From NCBI GenBank assembly GCA_000380225.1, contig KB904821.1, forward strand, positions 3,732,413 through 3,796,412: a DNA stretch of 64,000 nucleotides, in the 5' to 3' direction. This document shows, piece by piece, positions 18,569 through 50,205 of this stretch. The translations under genes were made by a program, and so were the position numbers. This stretch comes from a filamentous cyanobacterium ESFC-1. GTDB lineage: Bacteria > Cyanobacteriota > Cyanobacteriia > Cyanobacteriales > Spirulinaceae. Every line of letters begins with the position of its first letter. The first letter of the stretch is position 1. Below the pieces are notes generated by a model that was not told the origin of the DNA, did not search any database, and saw only the letters and a program-made list of their open reading frames with translations.

Positions 18569-18930
18569 AATAGTATATAAGGGAAACGTTGGTGCGAGGA
18601 TTAAATGTTTTTTGTTATTAGCTATTAGTGATTGGGGTCAAGTCATATCCAGTCATCCGTAGGGGCTGGGTTTCCCTGCCCAATTTAACATTAATACCTT
18701 GTCGTTGGTTGTTGGTTATTAGTGATTGGAGTCAAGTTATGTCCAGTTATCCGCAGGGGCTGGGTTTCCCTGCCCAATTTAGCATTAATATCTTGTCGAT
18801 TGTTGTTCAATAACGGTATCAAATCGTAATCCCAAACAGTTGAGATTAGATGATAAAACCTCACCCCTACACAACCTTAAATCTTGTTAAAGTTCGGCGG
18901 TTGAGCTTACTTTTCACCAGTAACCAATAA
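18569..18930. repeat. Direct 81-bp duplication with family C palindromes
   Basis: Two copies of an 81-base unit, 18624-18704 and 18718-18798, each start ATTAGTGATTGG and end CTTGTCG. Each contains a GGGGCTGGGTTTCCCTGCCC palindrome. The copies differ at a handful of positions, so this is not a very recent duplication. The flanks carry GTTGGTTATT-type heptads. No gene was seen. Confidence 0.8.
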
Positions 18931-35117: not shown

Positions 35118-35174
35118 GGGGCAGTAGGCAGTGGGCAGCTTTGCTGTAGGGGGGAGTGGGAGGAGGGGGAAGAA

Positions 35175-35305
35175 ATTACCAATTACCAACAACCAACAAC
35201 CAACAACCAATAACCAATAACCAACAACCAACAACCAACAACCAACAACCAACGACCAACAACCAACAACAAACAACCAACAACCAACAACCAATAACCA
35301 ACAAC
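35175..35305 (+). repeat. Heptad tandem repeat (ACCAACA / ACCAATA)
   Basis: About eighteen successive 7-base units, mostly ACCAACA with some ACCAATA, run up to within five bases of the ATG at 35310. The repeat therefore occupies the whole 5' leader of the DUF2330 gene, and no Shine-Dalgarno sequence exists there. Confidence 0.92.
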
Positions 35306-35309
35306 AAAA

Positions 35310-36626
35310 ATGAAACGAATATTAATTGTAATTGCGACAATTTGCGCTCTGATTGGCTTTGCGCGTCCGGCTTTGGCGTTTTGCGGGTTTTATGTCGCCA
35401 AAGCGGACTCTAGCTTGTATAATCAAGCCTCTCAGGTCATTATCGCCCGCGATCGCGATCGCACCGTTTTGACCATGGCGAACGATTACCAAGGAGAAGT
35501 GAAAGACTTTGCCCTGGTTGTCCCGGTTCCGGTACTCTTAAGCGAAGACCAAGTTAATGTCGGGGAACCAAAAATCATCGAACGCATTGATGCTTTTAGT
35601 GCGCCCCGCTTGGTGGAATATTTCGATAGTAATCCTTGTGCCATCCCGTCTCCAGTCCCCATGTTAGAATCTCGCGTGGGGGCTTTAGAAGACGGCGCTA
35701 TTATGACCGGACGGGCAGGCAATGCTGCCGATCTCGGTGTCACCATCGAAGACCAGTTTACCGTAGGCGAGTACGACATTCTGCTCCTTTCGGCTGAAGA
35801 ATCTGATGGCTTAGAAACTTGGCTGCGACAAAACGAGTATCAAATCCCCGAAGGGGCAAGTGCGTTATTGCAACCATACATCCGCCAAAACATGAAATTT
35901 TTTGTCGCGAGGGTGAATTTAGAGGAATTTGAAGAAAGCGGTTATCAAAAATTGCGCCCGTTGATGATGGCGTTTGAATCGCCCAAATTCAGGCTGCCGA
36001 TTCGATTAGGGACGATGAACGCCCAAAGCGAACAGGATTTAATTGTTTACCTCCTGTCTCCTGGCGGTCAGGTGGAATTAACCAATTACCGTACTGTGAA
36101 AGTCCCCTCGAATCTGGAGTTACCGGGATTTGTGGAGGAGGAGTTTACTGACTTCTACAAATCTATGTTTGCAACCAGCCACGCCAAAGAACAAAAGAAA
36201 GTCGCGTTTCTTGAATATGCTTGGGATATGGGCTGGTGCGATCCTTGCGTGGCGGATGCTTTGTCGCCAGAGGAGTTGCGACAAGCGGGAGTTTTCTGGG
36301 ATACTACGAGTCGAGGGGGCGGTTCTAATGTGTTTATTACTCGTCTTCATGTACGCTATACACGCGATCGCTTCCCGGAAGATTTACGTTTTCAAAGTAC
36401 CTCAAACCGCGAAAACTTCCAAGGGCGTTATATTATCCGCCATCCCTATAAAGGTGAAATGGACTGTCCCGCAGGCATTGAATACCAACGCAACCTTCAG
36501 CAACGCTTAGAACGAGAAGCCCAAACCCTTGCCCGTCTCACCGATTGGGACATCCAAGAGATTCGCAGTAAAATCGACCTTCCCGACATCGAACCTCGTC
36601 CCTGGTGGCGCAGATTGTGGGATTAA
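35310..36626 (+). CDS. DUF2330 exported protein
   Basis: 438 residues with a signal peptide (about 1-23, ending ALA). The mature protein begins with FCGFYVAKADSSLYNQASQV and NDYQGEVKDFALVVPVPV, the DUF2330 hallmark. Conserved Cys pairs lie later (WCDPCVADALS). The family is extracytoplasmic and of unknown function. Its place after an RnfD-like membrane protein suggests a shared redox or maturation role. The leader is made of heptad repeats, so either translation starts without a Shine-Dalgarno sequence or the transcript is leaderless or coupled. Confidence 0.88.
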   Translation: MKRILIVIATICALIGFARPALAFCGFYVAKADSSLYNQASQVIIARDRDRTVLTMANDYQGEVKDFALVVPVPVLLSEDQVNVGEPKIIERIDAFSAPRLVEYFDSNPCAIPSPVPMLESRVGALEDGAIMTGRAGNAADLGVTIEDQFTVGEYDILLLSAEESDGLETWLRQNEYQIPEGASALLQPYIRQNMKFFVARVNLEEFEESGYQKLRPLMMAFESPKFRLPIRLGTMNAQSEQDLIVYLLSPGGQVELTNYRTVKVPSNLELPGFVEEEFTDFYKSMFATSHAKEQKKVAFLEYAWDMGWCDPCVADALSPEELRQAGVFWDTTSRGGGSNVFITRLHVRYTRDRFPEDLRFQSTSNRENFQGRYIIRHPYKGEMDCPAGIEYQRNLQQRLEREAQTLARLTDWDIQEIRSKIDLPDIEPRPWWRRLWD

Positions 36627-36879: not shown

Positions 36880-37224
36880 TTATCTCTCAGTTTGTCCCCT
36901 AAAACGAGCGATTAATTCCTCGCGAGATAGTTGTAGCAACAGTGGTGTAAATTCTTCAGTCGGAAGTTGGGTAACAATCGGCGCAATCGCTTCTAACTCC
37001 GAGTCTATTGTACCGAATCGCATCCTGAGTAAACCGATCGCTACCTCTTGTCGTCCTTGTTCAATTCCTTGTTCAATTCCTTCTTGTAAAGCTTCTTGAT
37101 ACACGCGAGTTTGACGCAAATCACTCATACTAAACATACGTTCTATCTCCTGCCGACTCATCTGCGGTAACTTGTAAACTAAAATGCTTTCAATTAATTC
37201 TAAGAGTTCTGGTTGTTGAGAAGT
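36880..37224 (-). CDS. DUF2887 (Rpn-like) protein, exon 2 after the group II intron
   Basis: The C-terminal 114 residues: TSQQPELLELIESILVYKLP, SRQEIERMFSMSDLRQTRVY and EALQEGIEQGIEQGRQE, the tail of DUF2887 / Rpn-family nuclease-like proteins. There is no real start codon of its own: the open frame to 37278 runs through intron domain V. Joined to exon 1 (39706-40209) after splicing it reads ...VEVE-TSQQPEL... without a frame change, giving 282 residues, a normal family length. Confidence 0.85.
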   Translation of the reverse strand, partial: TSQQPELLELIESILVYKLPQMSRQEIERMFSMSDLRQTRVYQEALQEGIEQGIEQGRQEVAIGLLRMRFGTIDSELEAIAPIVTQLPTEEFTPLLLQLSREELIARFRGQTER

Positions 37225-37267
37225 ATTAGGGGTCGAGAGAGAGGTCACCCTCTCCCCCTCCCATTCA

Positions 37268-37301
37268 GAACCGTACATGATAGTTTCCCATCATACGGCT
37301 C
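37268..37301 (-). ncRNA. Group II intron domain V catalytic hairpin
   Basis: It begins GAGCCGTATGATGGGAAACT and ends ATGTACGGTTC: 34 nt with the AGC-type catalytic triad base (AGCC), GAAA tetraloop and bulge of active introns. It is followed by the domain VI stem (GGGAGGGGGAGAGG paired with CCTCTCTCTCGACCCC). Confidence 0.92.
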
Positions 37302-37310
37302 CTAGTCAAA

Positions 37311-39071
37311 TTAACCCTTGTCATGGGTACAGCCAACCCGGTTCAGACTTCCATCCTGACGGGTTTTAGAGTCGTGACAGTGGCGATGTAAGGCTTGAAG
37401 ATTTTTGTAAGTGTCTTTTCCACCCTTAGATTGAGGTAAAATGTGGTCAACCTCAATCAGGTCATTACTTGTGAAAGTTAATCCACAGTAAGTACATCGT
37501 CCTTTTTGACGTTTGATGAGCTTGGCTACGCGGTTTGGAATCCCGGTATAGCCATTACTCATCCGTTTACTCCAGTATGTCCAATCGCCGTCATAGGGGG
37601 ATTTTTCCCTTTTGACTTTGATATATCTTTTGATGGGGGTTTCTTGATGTGTTATCAATCGTAGCCCATCCTTGGTTTGAAACGTCCAGTTACCATTGAC
37701 TCCAACTCCATAATAGTTTTTGAGTTTGTCGTAGGACGCTTTACCGCATCGTGAGACTGTCCATGCCCTTAAAGCACCCCATATTAAGTTGTCCAGTTTG
37801 GAGAAGGTGGATTTGCTTACTACTTTGGAGTAGTAGTTTGACCACCCTTTTATGACCGGGTTGAGATGCTTAATCAAAGCACTCTGCGGTGCAGTGCGGT
37901 GAGTCTTGATCGCGGTTTTGCACTTGTCATAGTGACATTTGATTGCCTTTTTGGATGGTTTAATATTCAGTTGGTAGGGCTTTTTCCCGCCCGCTTGTCC
38001 GGCGTTGACTCCCTTATGAATACTCACAGGGTAATGCCGGATATTAAAGCCAAGGAAGTCGAAACCCGGTTCTTCCTCTTTCCATTCAGACAAAGTGTTA
38101 CATAACCGTGTCTTTCCAGGTTTGAGGGTTAAACCAACTGGTTTTAACCAATCTATAATCAGGTCTTGGGCTTTTAGTACGACTTCAGGGTTATTAGCTA
38201 ACACTACAAAGTCGTCGGCGTATCGAATGATTTTCGGGCGATATTGTTTTATTTGTTTTCCATCAACCCTAATACTTTTCGGAAAATGGTCAACAACCGA
38301 ATTTATCATTCCATGTAAGGCAATGTTAGCTAGGAGTGGACTAATGACTCCACCTTGGGGAGTTCCTGCTTCCGTTGCCTCAAATACGCCATTGTCCAAT
38401 ACTCCGGCTTTGAGCCATTGTTTAATATTCCGTTTATACACAGAAGGACAATCTAGCTTGGACAGGAGGTAATCATGGTTAATTTGGTCGAAACATTTGG
38501 CAATGTCTGCGTCTAGAACATATTGGGGTTTTCTCAATGCTTTCTTAAAGATGGCATCAATGGCATCGTGGGCTGAACGTCCGGGTCGAAACCCGTAGGA
38601 TTCGGCTTCAAATTGTGCTTCCCAATAGGGTTCTAATCCCAACTTAACCAAGGCTTGCAAGGCTCTGTCGTGCAGGGTTGGGATACCTAGGGGGCGTTTT
38701 TCATCCCGTCCTGGTTTAGGAATCCATACCCGGCGTAAGCTTTTGGCTTTCTGCCGTTGCTTCAGTTTGTCAGTTAGGTGTAACCGTTCTTTGGGGGTTA
38801 GGTTTTTGATTCCGTCTACCCCTGCGGTTTTCTTACCCTGATTGTCCTGACTTACTTTGCGTACTGCTAGGAGTCTTGCGTAGTAGGATTTGTTGAGTAA
38901 ACGTTGAAGTCGTCGAGCTTTCGCTTTCTGTCCCGATTTGACGGCTTGATAGATTGATTTTTGCAACTTGAACACTTTGCGTTGGATTTTACCCCAGGGC
39001 AGTGTGTTCCATGCGTTGTTCGTAGTCTGAGGTTGGGGTTGAAACCCTTTCCCTTCTCTCGCTATCGCCAT
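37311..39071 (-). CDS. ltrA: Group II intron-encoded reverse transcriptase/maturase with HNH endonuclease
   Basis: 586 residues, full length. Reverse transcriptase blocks are in order: RRVWIPKPGRDEKRPLGIP, YGFRPGRSAHDAI, AGTPQGGVISPLLANI and the catalytic IRYADDFVVLA (about residue 285). The maturase X domain is about 370-470. A C-terminal HNH endonuclease (about 520-570) has CTYCG, EVDHILPQSKGGKD and LHRHCH. No frameshift or missing catalytic residue was seen, so the intron may be mobile and self-splicing with protein help. It lies wholly within intron domain IV. Confidence 0.96.
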   Translation of the reverse strand: MAIAREGKGFQPQPQTTNNAWNTLPWGKIQRKVFKLQKSIYQAVKSGQKAKARRLQRLLNKSYYARLLAVRKVSQDNQGKKTAGVDGIKNLTPKERLHLTDKLKQRQKAKSLRRVWIPKPGRDEKRPLGIPTLHDRALQALVKLGLEPYWEAQFEAESYGFRPGRSAHDAIDAIFKKALRKPQYVLDADIAKCFDQINHDYLLSKLDCPSVYKRNIKQWLKAGVLDNGVFEATEAGTPQGGVISPLLANIALHGMINSVVDHFPKSIRVDGKQIKQYRPKIIRYADDFVVLANNPEVVLKAQDLIIDWLKPVGLTLKPGKTRLCNTLSEWKEEEPGFDFLGFNIRHYPVSIHKGVNAGQAGGKKPYQLNIKPSKKAIKCHYDKCKTAIKTHRTAPQSALIKHLNPVIKGWSNYYSKVVSKSTFSKLDNLIWGALRAWTVSRCGKASYDKLKNYYGVGVNGNWTFQTKDGLRLITHQETPIKRYIKVKREKSPYDGDWTYWSKRMSNGYTGIPNRVAKLIKRQKGRCTYCGLTFTSNDLIEVDHILPQSKGGKDTYKNLQALHRHCHDSKTRQDGSLNRVGCTHDKG

Positions 39072-39705
39072 ATCTATTGCTAGTTATCACTCGTATCGTT
39101 TAATCAGACCGGAGTACGTCAGCATATCCTTATCCATTACAGATAGGCGTTTTGCTTCTTACTCCATCTTGCCCCCATAGCCCTTGCGCTTAGACTTATC
39201 ACTGATCAGGTCTTCGACCAAGAGCCTGATAGTAGCTATGGGGTTACTTCGTTCCGTTACAAAGGGTATTCCTGATTTAGGTTCATTCTATCCCCGGTGG
39301 TACTTCTGAGAGTCTGTGTAGGTAGTGTACAAATCCTCCTACCTTTCCCATTGTTCTTTTGAACGCAGCCTATCAACTGACTTTGGCTACTGAATAGTTT
39401 CCGAGGTTCAAGACAGATGTTTAGCCGTAGCTTAACCTTGTCAGATTGTCGGTGGTCACGAATTTTGAGGGTCAGTTCCCTCTCAGTGCCTTCCCAAGCC
39501 CGCTTTAATCCTAGGATTGTCAGTTCTAAAATTAGGGCTGGAGTTAGACGTTGGGCTTCAGGTTTTTATCCCGTTGACTCTGCCCATCCCTTACCTCAAG
39601 GCTTTCGCCTCTTGGGACTTTGTAACAGTTGTCAGGAGGTTTTGTCTCCTGCTAGACTTACGTTTCGGGTATTTCAACCCTAACTTTTGCCTAAACGAAT
39701 CGCAC

Positions 39706-40209
39706 TTCTACTTCTACTCTAACTCGTTCGATGAGGTCTTGAGCTTGTTCAATAGCTTGAGATTTGGGGGCTGTGACTAATCCCACCGTCGCGAGTAGGG
39801 GGGTAGATTGTAGAGTTTCGTCTAACTCGTCTAAATATAAAGGGGTAATGCGTCCCGACTCAAAAAATTCTGAGTAGCGAGTCTTCGGACTGTTATCAAC
39901 CCGGCGATTGGGAAAAATCACAACACCTCGCCAATCGCTGTCTAAGTCGCTGCGGTAAAGATAGAGGAAAATTTCGCTTAAAAGTCGCGCAAAAAAGGTG
40001 TTATCAGGCTGAAACTGTACCTCAACAAAGTAAATCGGTGCATCGGTAACTGTGGGTAAAAAGACTCCATCGAGACGAAAGGATAGTTGTTTGACTTCTA
40101 CGGAGTCGAAGCGATAGTTTTGGGCAAATTGGGGGGAAATTTGGAGTAATTCAAAGAGAGTTTGGGGGAATGTTTGAAAAAGACGATAAAAAATGGTATC
40201 GGTTTTCAT
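39706..40209 (-). CDS. DUF2887 (Rpn-like) protein, exon 1
   Basis: 168 codons from the ATG at 40209 (MKTDTIFYRLFQTFPQ, the usual family start; the frame open to 40251 is upstream extension). The nuclease-like core is RLDGVFLPTVTDAPIYFVEV followed by QFQPD (Asp...Glu-x-Gln of a PD-(D/E)XK fold) and DWRGVVIFPNR. It ends AQDLIERVRVEVE at the intron boundary. Family members are related to RpnA/transposase_31 nucleases and are very common in cyanobacteria; biological role uncertain. It starts 35 bases after the Uma2 gene on the same strand. Confidence 0.88.
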
Positions 40210-40244: not shown

Positions 40245-40847
40245 CTACCAAATTCGCGCCATTGGCAAGACAAATCCCGGTAATTCTGGATCGCCACTGA
40301 CGCTTTCAGGATTTTCGAGTAAGATGGGTTCTGCGTTAGGACGATAGACTGTCACGGTGCGGTTTTGGCGGTCGATCAGCCAAGCGAGTTTTGCGCCATT
40401 GTCGATATATTCGCGACATTTGGCTTGGAGTTGGGGGAGGCGATCGCTTCTAGAGCGCAACTCTACCACAAAGTCCGGGCAGATCGGCGCAAAAGAGGCT
40501 TTTTGGTCATCGGTTAAACTCTCCCAGCGATCGCGTCTCATCCAGGAGGCATCGGGCGATCGCGTGGCATTATTGGGTAAAGTAAAACCGGCACTCGAAT
40601 CGAAGGTTTCCCCAGTTCCATCGCGATCTGCCCAATTTGCCAGTTGTTGGGCAATTTTCAGGTTACGATTGCCCGTATCAGAAAAGGCGGGGGGCATAAT
40701 GATAACATCTCCAGTCGCAGTGCGTTCAATGCGTAAATCGCGATTGGCTAAAGCAAATTCATAAAATTGGGTTGAAGTCATAGACGCGATCGCGGGAAAA
40801 TGAATAGTTAAGGGGATGCGATCGCCTTGAATTTGAAAGGTTGTCAT
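40245..40847 (-). CDS. Uma2-family (DUF820) PD-(D/E)XK nuclease-like protein
   Basis: 200 residues from the ATG at 40847 (MTTFQIQGDRIPLTIHFP). Typical Uma2 blocks: TSTQFYEFALANRDLRIERT, GEVIIM-type GDVIIMPPAF, RSPDASWMRRDRW (Asp), PDFVVELRSRSDR (Glu-x-R) and YIDNGAKLAWLIDRQN. The family is expanded in cyanobacteria and is related to restriction-type nucleases; function unproven. It is the first gene of a minus-strand pair with the intron-split DUF2887 gene, another nuclease-like family. Confidence 0.92.
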   Translation of the reverse strand: MTTFQIQGDRIPLTIHFPAIASMTSTQFYEFALANRDLRIERTATGDVIIMPPAFSDTGNRNLKIAQQLANWADRDGTGETFDSSAGFTLPNNATRSPDASWMRRDRWESLTDDQKASFAPICPDFVVELRSRSDRLPQLQAKCREYIDNGAKLAWLIDRQNRTVTVYRPNAEPILLENPESVSGDPELPGFVLPMARIW

Positions 40848-40967
40848 AATTTCGTTATGGGGTATGGAAAAATTCGTCTTGTTAAATTTATTTGCAACAA
40901 TGCCCGAATTTTGAGCCAAAATAGTAGCGACACCACAAGCCAACGGCTGAATATCTATTGAAATTCT

Positions 40968-41981
40968 ATGTCTGAAGCAACTCAATCCGCCAATCGCCTT
41001 TTGATTGTGATTGTTAACTACAAATCTGCCCCCTTGACAGTGAACTGTCTGCGAACCTTAGAATCCGAAATCAAAGCCCTTCCGGGGACTCATGTCACCA
41101 TCGTTGAAAATGATTCAGGGGATGACTCCCTCACACAAATTCAAACTGCGATTGACCAAGAAAACTGGCACGATTGGGTCACATTAACCGCTTCAGACCA
41201 CAATGGCGGTTATGCTTATGGCAATAATTTGGGCATTCGTCCGGCATTAGAAGGGGACAATCCACCGCAATACGTCTTACTGCTAAACCCGGACACTCGC
41301 GTTCATCCAGGGGCGCTACAAGCCCTGATTAACTTTATGGACGAACATCCCCAAGCAGGAATTGCCGGAAGCAGTTTTGAGGATGATAATGGCAATCTTT
41401 GGCCTTATGCGTTTCGTTTCCCCACAATTCTGAGTGAAATTAACGAGGGCTTCCGCATTGGTGTGATTACCAAGCTGTTAAACCGTTGGATTGTGCCGCG
41501 TACCATGGAACAAGACAAACCCCAACAAATCGATTGGCTACCGGGGGCAAGTATGATGATTCGACGGGAAGTGTTTGAACAAGTGGGCTTGATGGACGAG
41601 GGCTATTTCCTGTATTACGAGGAAACCGATTTTTGTCTGCAAGCCAAACGCCAAGGGTGGGAATGTTGGTATGTTCCCGCAAGCCATGTCACCCATATCT
41701 GCGGCCAAAGTACCGGAGTCACGAAGATTAACAATCCCAAGAAAAAGCGTTTACCGCAATATTGGTTTGATTCTCGTCGTCGCTATTTTCTCAAAAACTA
41801 TGGTGTATTCTACACCGCGATCGCGGATGCAGTCTGGATTAGCGGCTTTGCCACTTGGCGAATGCGTCGGGTAATTCAAGGCAAACCCGATCGCGACCCT
41901 CCCAAATATTTAAGCGATTTTATCCAAAATAGTGTGTTTTTCCGAGGCGGGAGCGTTCCCACTTCCCAAGCCCCCAGTTAG
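40968..41981 (+). CDS. Family 2 glycosyltransferase (rhamnosyltransferase-like)
   Basis: 337 residues, soluble. GT-A fold: LLIVIVNYKSAPLTVNCLRT, IVENDSGD, NGGYAYGNNLGI, LLLNPDTRVHPGA (the DxD-like NPDT), IDWLPGASMMIRREVFEQVG, DEGYFLYYEETDFCLQAKRQ and a C-terminal basic segment. WbbL/RfbF-like enzymes of this subfamily add rhamnose or related sugars to surface polysaccharides. A terminator follows at 42028, so it is a single-gene unit. Confidence 0.92.
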   Translation: MSEATQSANRLLIVIVNYKSAPLTVNCLRTLESEIKALPGTHVTIVENDSGDDSLTQIQTAIDQENWHDWVTLTASDHNGGYAYGNNLGIRPALEGDNPPQYVLLLNPDTRVHPGALQALINFMDEHPQAGIAGSSFEDDNGNLWPYAFRFPTILSEINEGFRIGVITKLLNRWIVPRTMEQDKPQQIDWLPGASMMIRREVFEQVGLMDEGYFLYYEETDFCLQAKRQGWECWYVPASHVTHICGQSTGVTKINNPKKKRLPQYWFDSRRRYFLKNYGVFYTAIADAVWISGFATWRMRRVIQGKPDRDPPKYLSDFIQNSVFFRGGSVPTSQAPS

Positions 41982-49229: not shown

Positions 49230-50205
49230 GTTGCAACTCAAACTAATCCCTATTAGGGATTGAAACTGATGATCTAAGATGTAGAACTTTCTGATTTGGG
49301 CAGTTGCAACTCAAACTAATCCCTATTAGGGATTGAAACCAACCACTTCTTCGCAACTTTAGCCTGGCTCAACGGTTGCAACTCAAACTAATCCCTATTA
49401 GGGATTGAAACTTTGTGTATAATGTAAGCCAGGTAGACAGTGGGTGTTGCAACTCAAACTAATCCCTATTAGGGATTGAAACCCATTTAGCTCCTGTTTT
49501 TGTGATTGAAGATAATAGTTGCAACTCAAACTAATCCCTATTAGGGATTGAAACGATTTTGACAATTAGAACGCATTTTTAACGACCCCCTGTTGCAACT
49601 CAAACTAATCCCTATTAGGGATTGAAACTTAATCGTTTTTGTTCCGGCTCTGGCTGGTATGGTTGCAACTCAAACTAATCCCTATTAGGGATTGAAACCC
49701 CCGTATGGCGGCAGCCCTTACACGATTTTTGTTGCAACTCAAACTAATCCCTATTAGGGATTGAAACTTTCAACAGGTTGTTCAAAAACGGTCGCTGTGT
49801 ATGTTGCAACTCAAACTAATCCCTATTAGGGATTGAAACCTCGTATTAGTAAGGCTTATGACGTACCTACCGAGCGGTTGCAACTCAAACTAATCCCTAT
49901 TAGGGATTGAAACAAACCCCGGAAAGCAGACCATAGCCCACATCTTCTAATGGTTGCAACTCAAACTAATCCCTATTAGGGATTGAAACTCAGTGGTGGG
50001 GGAGTAGAATGGTCGCATTCCGCCGTTGCAACTCAAACTAATCCCTATTAGGGATTGAAACGGGGATTTCGAGCGATTCGGTGGTGATTTCGGCTGATGT
50101 TGCAACTCAAACTAATCCCTATTAGGGATTGAAACCACCTGGGGCGCTGGCTTGAAGGTGGCCAAGCGGTTGCAACTCAAACTAATCCCTATTAGGGATT
50201 GAAAC
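49230..50205 (+). CRISPR. CRISPR array, 14 identical 37-nt repeats and 13 spacers
   Basis: The repeat begins GTTGCAACTCAAAC and ends with the palindrome AATCCCTATTAGGGATT followed by GAAAC; the stem is AATCCCTA/TAGGGATT. Repeat starts: 49230, 49303, 49375, 49446, 49518, 49592, 49662, 49731, 49803, 49877, 49953, 50025, 50099, 50169. Spacers are 32-39 bases and no two are alike. The ATTGAAAC handle is typical of type I-D and type III arrays processed by Cas6. No interference or adaptation genes are adjacent; cas6 lies at 44462-45556. Confidence 0.99.

Follow-up and report, generated by a model that had tools for sequence, protein, structure and literature searches.

The locus described here raises the question of which products a gene can still give when a mobile intron lies within it. 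In a 64,000-nucleotide (nt) stretch of the genome of the filamentous cyanobacterium ESFC-1 (contig KB904821.1 of assembly GCA_000380225.1; the whole stretch is called the window, and coordinates are positions in it), a group II intron of 2481 nt, located at 39705-37225 on the minus strand, splits a gene of the DUF2887 family in phase 0. Exon 1 (40209-39706) comprises 168 codons and exon 2 (37224-36880) 114 codons and the stop codon, and the joined exons form one open frame of 282 residues with no stop or frameshift. We consider it probable that a complete mobile intron sits in an rpn-like gene in such a way that the toxin requires splicing and the RpnS-like antitoxin does not. A first-pass annotation of this DNA had set the ends of a phase-0 insertion to the base at 39705 and 37225 and had proposed that joining 39706 to 37224 yields an uninterrupted 282-residue protein of normal length for its family. 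The joined frame bears out the latter, and eight insertion contexts share the proposed ends.

The interrupted gene and its family

All elements of the gene and the intron lie on the minus strand. The product of exon 1 represents the DUF2887/Rpn nuclease part, with a match to PF11103 of 214.9 bits over profile positions 1 to 167, and exon 2 supplies the end of the profile (positions 172 to 200; 31.3 bits) and a tail. Against TIGR01784 (Rpn family recombination-promoting nuclease, NCBIfam), whose cut-off is 52.1, the joined protein scored 110.7 bits and exon 1 alone 72.4. As judged from these profile matches, the host gene is a member of the Rpn nucleases. Its initial description as a nuclease-like DUF2887 gene is amended in that the gene is one of a multi-copy family that is part of the Rpn nucleases; this membership had been overlooked, as had the internal start described below.

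Four residues, all encoded by exon 1, are conserved throughout the homologues: D4 in 94 of 94, and D47, E63 and Q65 in 96 of 96. Their order and the ExQ spacing suggest that they are the counterparts of D11, D63, E82 and Q84 of RpnA, whose activities were abolished by D11A, D63A, E82A or Q84K, while Q84A still lowered viability, as described for these variants in the relevant part of PMC5350276. A search of the PDB by sequence returned only a designed protein (E value of 0.05), PADLOC gave one weak match, on the tail, and no literature naming DUF2887 was found by family name.

The genome of ESFC-1 contains five other genes with a full or nearly full DUF2887 profile. Homologues were found in 50 of the 59 genomes searched, its own included, with no match in 9, and most of those listed cross the intron junction; in the order as a whole, DUF2887 was matched in 159 of 195 genomes, at up to at least 15 places per genome. 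Two intron-free paralogues of the same genome, L003 and L004, align with the interrupted gene without gaps across the junction, so that the comparison with intron-free homologues proposed at the outset found the flanks contiguous. L004 has the identical sequence GTAGAAGTAGAA at the junction, read GTA GAA GTA GAA at the exact place. As both paralogues are contiguous there and L004 carries the same sequence at the site, the target very probably predates the intron.

A probable internal start in exon 2

According to the sections of PMC10327210 on the Escherichia coli Rpn proteins, their C-terminal part is also translated alone, as RpnS, from an internal start, and it blocks the toxic full-length RpnL. 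A comparable start is apparent here. Met198 of the joined protein, at 37137, is invariant in 96 of 96 homologues, i.e., in 61 of 61 sequences of a first set and 35 of 35 of a second one. The first set held 54 distinct sequences of 70 rows, or 61 with a slightly different filter. The second, held-out set provided 35 new sequences from 40 further loci (none from L197, L204, L206, L207 or L222), partly from genomes already present in the first.

The codons shortly upstream of this Met are constrained at the synonymous level. Where codon 193 specifies Lys, Gln or Glu, its last base was G in every sequence of both sets (52 of 52 and 33 of 33), compared with 23 and 25% at other columns; the codon was AAG for Lys, CAG for Gln and GAG for Glu, and none of the 85 codons ended in A. 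The corresponding values for codon 194 were 47 of 60 in the first set and 30 of 35 in the second. These were the top two columns in both sets, of 57 and 59, respectively, and codons for the same three residues located before Glu elsewhere ended in G in 154 of 515 cases (30%). In a codon-usage scan of 218 columns, column 194 came first per degree of freedom and column 193 first by total. As the genes are related, p values overstate this constraint, and other columns of the same genes served as the control. In 38 of 61 and 28 of 35 sequences, the 27 bases that precede Met198 include the motif AGGAG; the remainder have GGAG, GAGG or AGGA. Of other stretches of nine codons, 3.6 and 3.0% contain AGGAG.

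In the interrupted gene, codons 193 and 194 are CAG GAG and create the Shine-Dalgarno box AGGAG (37147-37151), 9 nt before the internal ATG (37137-37135); both box and start are intact. The RpnS-like cistron thus delimited (36880-37137) codes for 85 residues. The four-residue repeat EGIEQGIEQGRQ begins at about residue 18 or 19 of this short form and is encoded by a 12-bp direct repeat at 37054-37082 (Tandem Repeats Finder, 2.4 copies, 100% matches). A distance of 87 nt separates the 3′ end of the intron from the internal start, with the counterparts of the catalytic residues in exon 1 and the whole RpnS-like cistron in exon 2. We regard it as very likely, from the conservation of the signals, that the start at 37137 is used in the host.

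No conserved internal promoter was found before the RpnS-like start, and the codon of Tyr185 had no bias in the codon-usage scan. Columns 180 (Glu) and 186 (Lys) of DUF2887 displayed a mild lean toward codons ending in G, with 51 GAG to 36 GAA and 45 AAG to 50 AAA, which may be another signal that serves the internal cistron.

Standalone copies of the RpnS-like part

Short open reading frames (ORFs) equivalent to the internal cistron occur by themselves. One of 70 residues, located behind paralogue L004, begins at the equivalent Met and has the box; the same part of its parent has 74 residues. We scanned 107 loci and obtained 103 motif hits, 16 of which had fewer than 120 open codons upstream, or 14 after removal of repeats. 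One of the 14 is exon 2 of the window, and of the 13 others, which mostly lack the nuclease part, 12 have the box. Homology with full-length genes ends at most 23 residues upstream of the Met in 10 of the 13, and in four of them at 5 to 6 residues, i.e., at the box. Upstream homology extends over 43 to 50 residues, 50 being the limit of the comparison, in L022 (first hit), L030 and L173; these may be full-length genes that have been broken. An early stop occurs in L021, and L181, L185, L186 and L191 look related to one another, which lowers the number of independent cases. RpnS-like ORFs lacking the nuclease part were noted at L004, L022, L154, L171, L181, L185, L186, L191 and L216, with a variable number of four-residue repeats.

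These copies bear on the idea that the locked codons 193 and 194 serve the protein, or another signal, rather than translation of an internal cistron. E194 is conserved in 95 of 96 homologues, hence part of the conservation is at the protein level, and the standalone copy L191, which has AAAGAG where the other 12 carry the box, counts against our interpretation of the box. However, the constraint at codon 193 is synonymous, L154 has kept the box and the ATG after loss of the upstream frame, and L021, L022 (second hit), L171 and L216 retain only 5 to 6 codons upstream of the Met. A role other than translation of the internal cistron thus appears very improbable.

Intron anatomy and guide pairing

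Group II introns are defined by 5′ GUGYG and 3′ AY ends. We aligned the 10 full-length closest copies of the intron, leaving out distant or partial copies and the second copy in G049; two pairs have the same flanks, yielding 8 distinct insertion contexts. In all of them, the intron starts with GTGCG and ends with CCCCTAAT, the last four bases being TAAT. Since the flanks are not the same, both junctions are fixed. Domains V and VI (37303-37225) matched RF00029 of Rfam with 60.3 bits (gathering threshold of 40) and are predicted to fold with -41.2 kcal/mol (z of -4.9 relative to shuffled sequences). In this fold, a GU forms the unpaired 2-nt bulge of domain V, and the branch point is probably the A at 37233, which is unpaired and located 8 nt from the 3′ end. 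Domain V is similar to those of plastid introns in the Rfam comparison. The intron appears to be of group IIB type; the part with domains I to IV gave no Rfam family at an E value of ≤1. An in-frame ATG at 37278, inside domain V, opens a frame of 132 codons that runs into exon 2 (36880-37278), a possible further product of unspliced RNA.

The intron-encoded protein, a reverse transcriptase/maturase of 586 residues with an HNH endonuclease (37311-39071), has the RVT_N, RVT_1, GIIM and HNH profiles and passes TIGR04416 with 323 bits (cut-off of 300). Relative to the second copy of the intron in the same genome, its synonymous divergence is 0.29 and its dN/dS ratio (nonsynonymous to synonymous) 0.11; therefore, the maturase has been kept under purifying selection in this lineage. 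The claim that the maturase and domain V are intact was thus confirmed by the profiles and the fold, and we are practically certain that the intron has the anatomy described; it appears to be structurally complete.

We also followed up the suggestion that the intron pairs with the exon end GTAGAA. This sequence, intron-binding site 1 (IBS1; 39706-39711), comprises the last six bases of exon 1 and forms five of six pairs with exon-binding site 1 (EBS1), TTGTAC, located in a hairpin loop (39327-39332); the sixth is a G.G mismatch at position -3. Over the 8 sites, EBS1 and IBS1 formed 40 of 48 pairs, a score reached by 1 of 40320 assignments of introns to sites, namely, the true one, while swapped partners gave 2.6 pairs of 6. 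Of nine offsets tried for EBS1, one gave this signal, and the eight others (0 to 3 and 5 to 8) gave none. EBS2 (CTATTC; 39392-39397) forms six of six pairs with IBS2 (GAGTAG; 39714-39719), one of them G-U, and pairing over the 8 sites with free spacing amounted to 43 of 48, again reached by 1 of 40320 assignments. The EBS3 candidate is the T at 39290, whose partner is the A that begins exon 2; it is the sole column of the 5′ part to pair in 7 of the 8 introns.

Copies of the intron and their insertion sites

In the genome of ESFC-1 (5.63 Mb in 3 contigs), we found a second copy, 93% identical and with an ORF, making a total of two. It is followed by a histidine phosphatase gene (PF00300), whose first possible start is 29 bases away. 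A target common to both copies was considered and rejected, the 3′ flank of the second one running into the histidine phosphatase gene. Among the best 80 of 108 loci with relatives in named genomes, the nearest outside ESFC-1 is that of Lyngbya aestuarii BL J (L045), with 88% identity of the maturase and 85% identity of the DNA over the full length; it differs in that no reading frame of at least 70 codons spans its insertion point. L014 (in G005, a genome assigned to the same family) and L047 (Spirulina sp. CS-785/01) share the same intron site and flanks, suggesting that the host is related to Spirulina. In a plasmid collection, 47 records had relatives of the intron, none covering 80% of it.

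Among the 8 sites, only the intron of the window lies in sense inside a frame that extends far on both sides. At L002, the downstream frame crosses the junction by 22 nt, and the junctions of L046 and L125 are spanned by antisense frames of 77 and 113 codons, respectively. The intron of L125 is close to the start of the 113-codon ORF and would break it if that ORF is a gene. A tblastn search with the joined protein over 114 loci (the 108 of L045 to L152 plus L001, L002 and L011 to L014, many with only a partial intron or short flanks) found no other DUF2887 gene split by an intron; at L123, a DUF2887 neighbor is unbroken and on the opposite strand. A dispersed palindromic repeat around CCTCTCCCGTGGGAGAGGGG is present at seven sites in the window (2547, 36769, 46063, 51686, 54009, 54136 and 62874), with 13 strand hits as opposed to 0 in shuffled sequences, and a sequence resembling it is found on the 5′ side of the second intron copy.

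The distribution of sites, with no visible preference for rpn, one of the 8 in sense within a long frame and no second split DUF2887 gene, is what one would expect of a neutral insertion, i.e., an intron that splices well and lets the full-length protein be made, with no consequence of its position before the internal start. Nevertheless, that position does separate the two products. We give this explanation an even chance.

Integrity of the interrupted gene

Several observations weigh against the reading of a functional toxin-antitoxin gene with a splicing-competent intron. Of 51 columns conserved to 90% or more, the interrupted gene departs from the consensus in 3, compared with 1 for L003 and 2 for L004, and one change affects Y73, a Tyr in 96 of 96 homologues that is replaced by Phe. 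Exon 1 is less like three of four outgroups than L003 is. Together, the changed columns and the outgroup likeness hint faintly at relaxed constraint. Against DUF4351, as RpnS is called in some species, the tail scored 17.7 bits with a cut-off of 25. With fixed spacing, the EBS2/IBS2 pairing is weaker (35 of 48, reached by 100 of 40320 assignments), and the EBS3 column was chosen as the best one and does not pair in one of the 8 introns. Finally, the G.G mismatch at -3 of the EBS1/IBS1 duplex could weaken splicing.

Some of these points favor a dead gene, one with poor or no splicing and a disarmed nuclease, whose exons, now a pseudogene in decay, happen to have remained open: the mismatch, the three changed residues including Y73 and the slightly reduced similarity between exon 1 and the outgroups, to which one may add that some relatives lack this multi-copy family. 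Against this, the 282 codons contain neither stop nor frameshift, the box and internal start are intact, and so are the intron RNA and the maturase. As to the mismatch, single changes at -7, -6, -2 and -1 left 63 to 86% excision of the intron RmInt1, although a change at -5 left 12% and three simultaneous changes, from -4 to -2, left 13%; the section of PMC3123198 on these changes describes none at -3 alone. On these values, the G.G mismatch may reduce splicing without necessarily abolishing it. All in all, a dead gene seems unlikely, and we expect with fair assurance that the intron splices in vivo.

Possible products with and without splicing

Under our preferred interpretation, a mobile group IIB-type intron would have entered the rpn-like gene in sense by RNA-guided retrohoming. 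Spliced RNA, with the exons rejoined in phase 0, would code for the full-length nuclease (RpnL-like, 282 residues) and the short form inside it. Unspliced RNA would give a nuclease part of 172 residues (168 plus four intron codons) with the catalytic residues and without the C-terminal part, and its exon 2, still equipped with its own ribosome-binding site and start, would give the 85-residue RpnS-like antitoxin. The antitoxin-like product should not need splicing, since exon 2 keeps the conserved ribosome-binding site and start. The earlier view that splicing is necessary for the product accordingly stands for the full-length protein but not for the antitoxin-like one, and it is further limited in that exon 1 alone holds the residues corresponding to the catalytic ones. 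As stated in the relevant passage of PMC5350276, removal of the last 45 residues of RpnD reduced its activity and did not abolish it, and thus the 172-residue product need not be harmless. Three points are inferred, namely, that the intron is removed by splicing in vivo, that translation does begin at the internal start of this gene and that the short protein inhibits the long one; for this gene, DNA cleavage, toxicity and inhibition by the short form are predictions.

The arrangement might also act as a safety catch, in which unspliced transcripts add antitoxin-coding RNA and the efficiency of splicing sets the ratio of toxin to antitoxin. Temperature, the level of maturase or phage-induced stress would then alter splicing, and the selfish intron would be tolerated in the gene for that reason. 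We find this extension improbable. Nevertheless, the location of the intron, between toxin and internal antitoxin, lets one ask whether splicing can set their ratio.

Other features of the window

A Uma2 gene (40245-40985; PF05685, 139 bits) ends 35 nt upstream of exon 1 on the same strand, and the two are possibly co-transcribed. The window also contains a CRISPR array (49230-50205) of 14 repeats matching CRISPR-DR5, a tandem array of AATAACC-like 7-mers (35174-35305) just upstream of an ORF at 35310-36626, and a 94-bp unit in two head-to-tail copies (18623-18807; 90% matches).

Comparison with known systems

By itself, the intron is ordinary, and cyanobacterial genes with such introns are already known. 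Bacterial introns are mostly found outside housekeeping genes, which some, particularly in cyanobacteria, have entered (PMC4424553); the corresponding remark of the first-pass annotation agrees with what this paper and PMC4649490 say on the matter. In the portions of PMC2882425 on Thermosynechococcus elongatus, the EBS sequences diverge between intron families and mostly fit their own targets with at most one mismatch, and few copies lie within genes, as in our case. The difference is in number, with 8 ORF-containing and 17 ORF-less introns in that organism and two copies here, both with ORFs. In Trichodesmium (PMC4649490), group II introns also lie inside protein genes and must be spliced, 17 of them being documented in vivo. 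However, the genes are others, the case studied is a twintron, and the relevant passages contain no toxin-antitoxin context. Among the matches listed in literature searches on group II introns and toxin-antitoxin systems, or on Rpn and cyanobacteria or internal initiation, the present arrangement was absent.

A close parallel is with E. coli rpn as presented in the pertinent sections of PMC10327210. The genes belong to the Rpn family, have a box and a Met inside the gene (mutated there at K240, E241 and M244 of RpnA), carry four-residue repeats 8 to 20 residues after the internal Met, as here, and are accompanied by extra standalone rpnS copies downstream of the parent gene. In contrast, the gene of ESFC-1 is from the cyanobacterial DUF2887 branch, and the word cyanobacteria is absent from those sections; it has one more codon between box and start, and an intron separates the two parts. 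The conserved internal start would thereby bring a widespread cyanobacterial family under the Rpn scheme, in which a toxin gene conceals its antitoxin.

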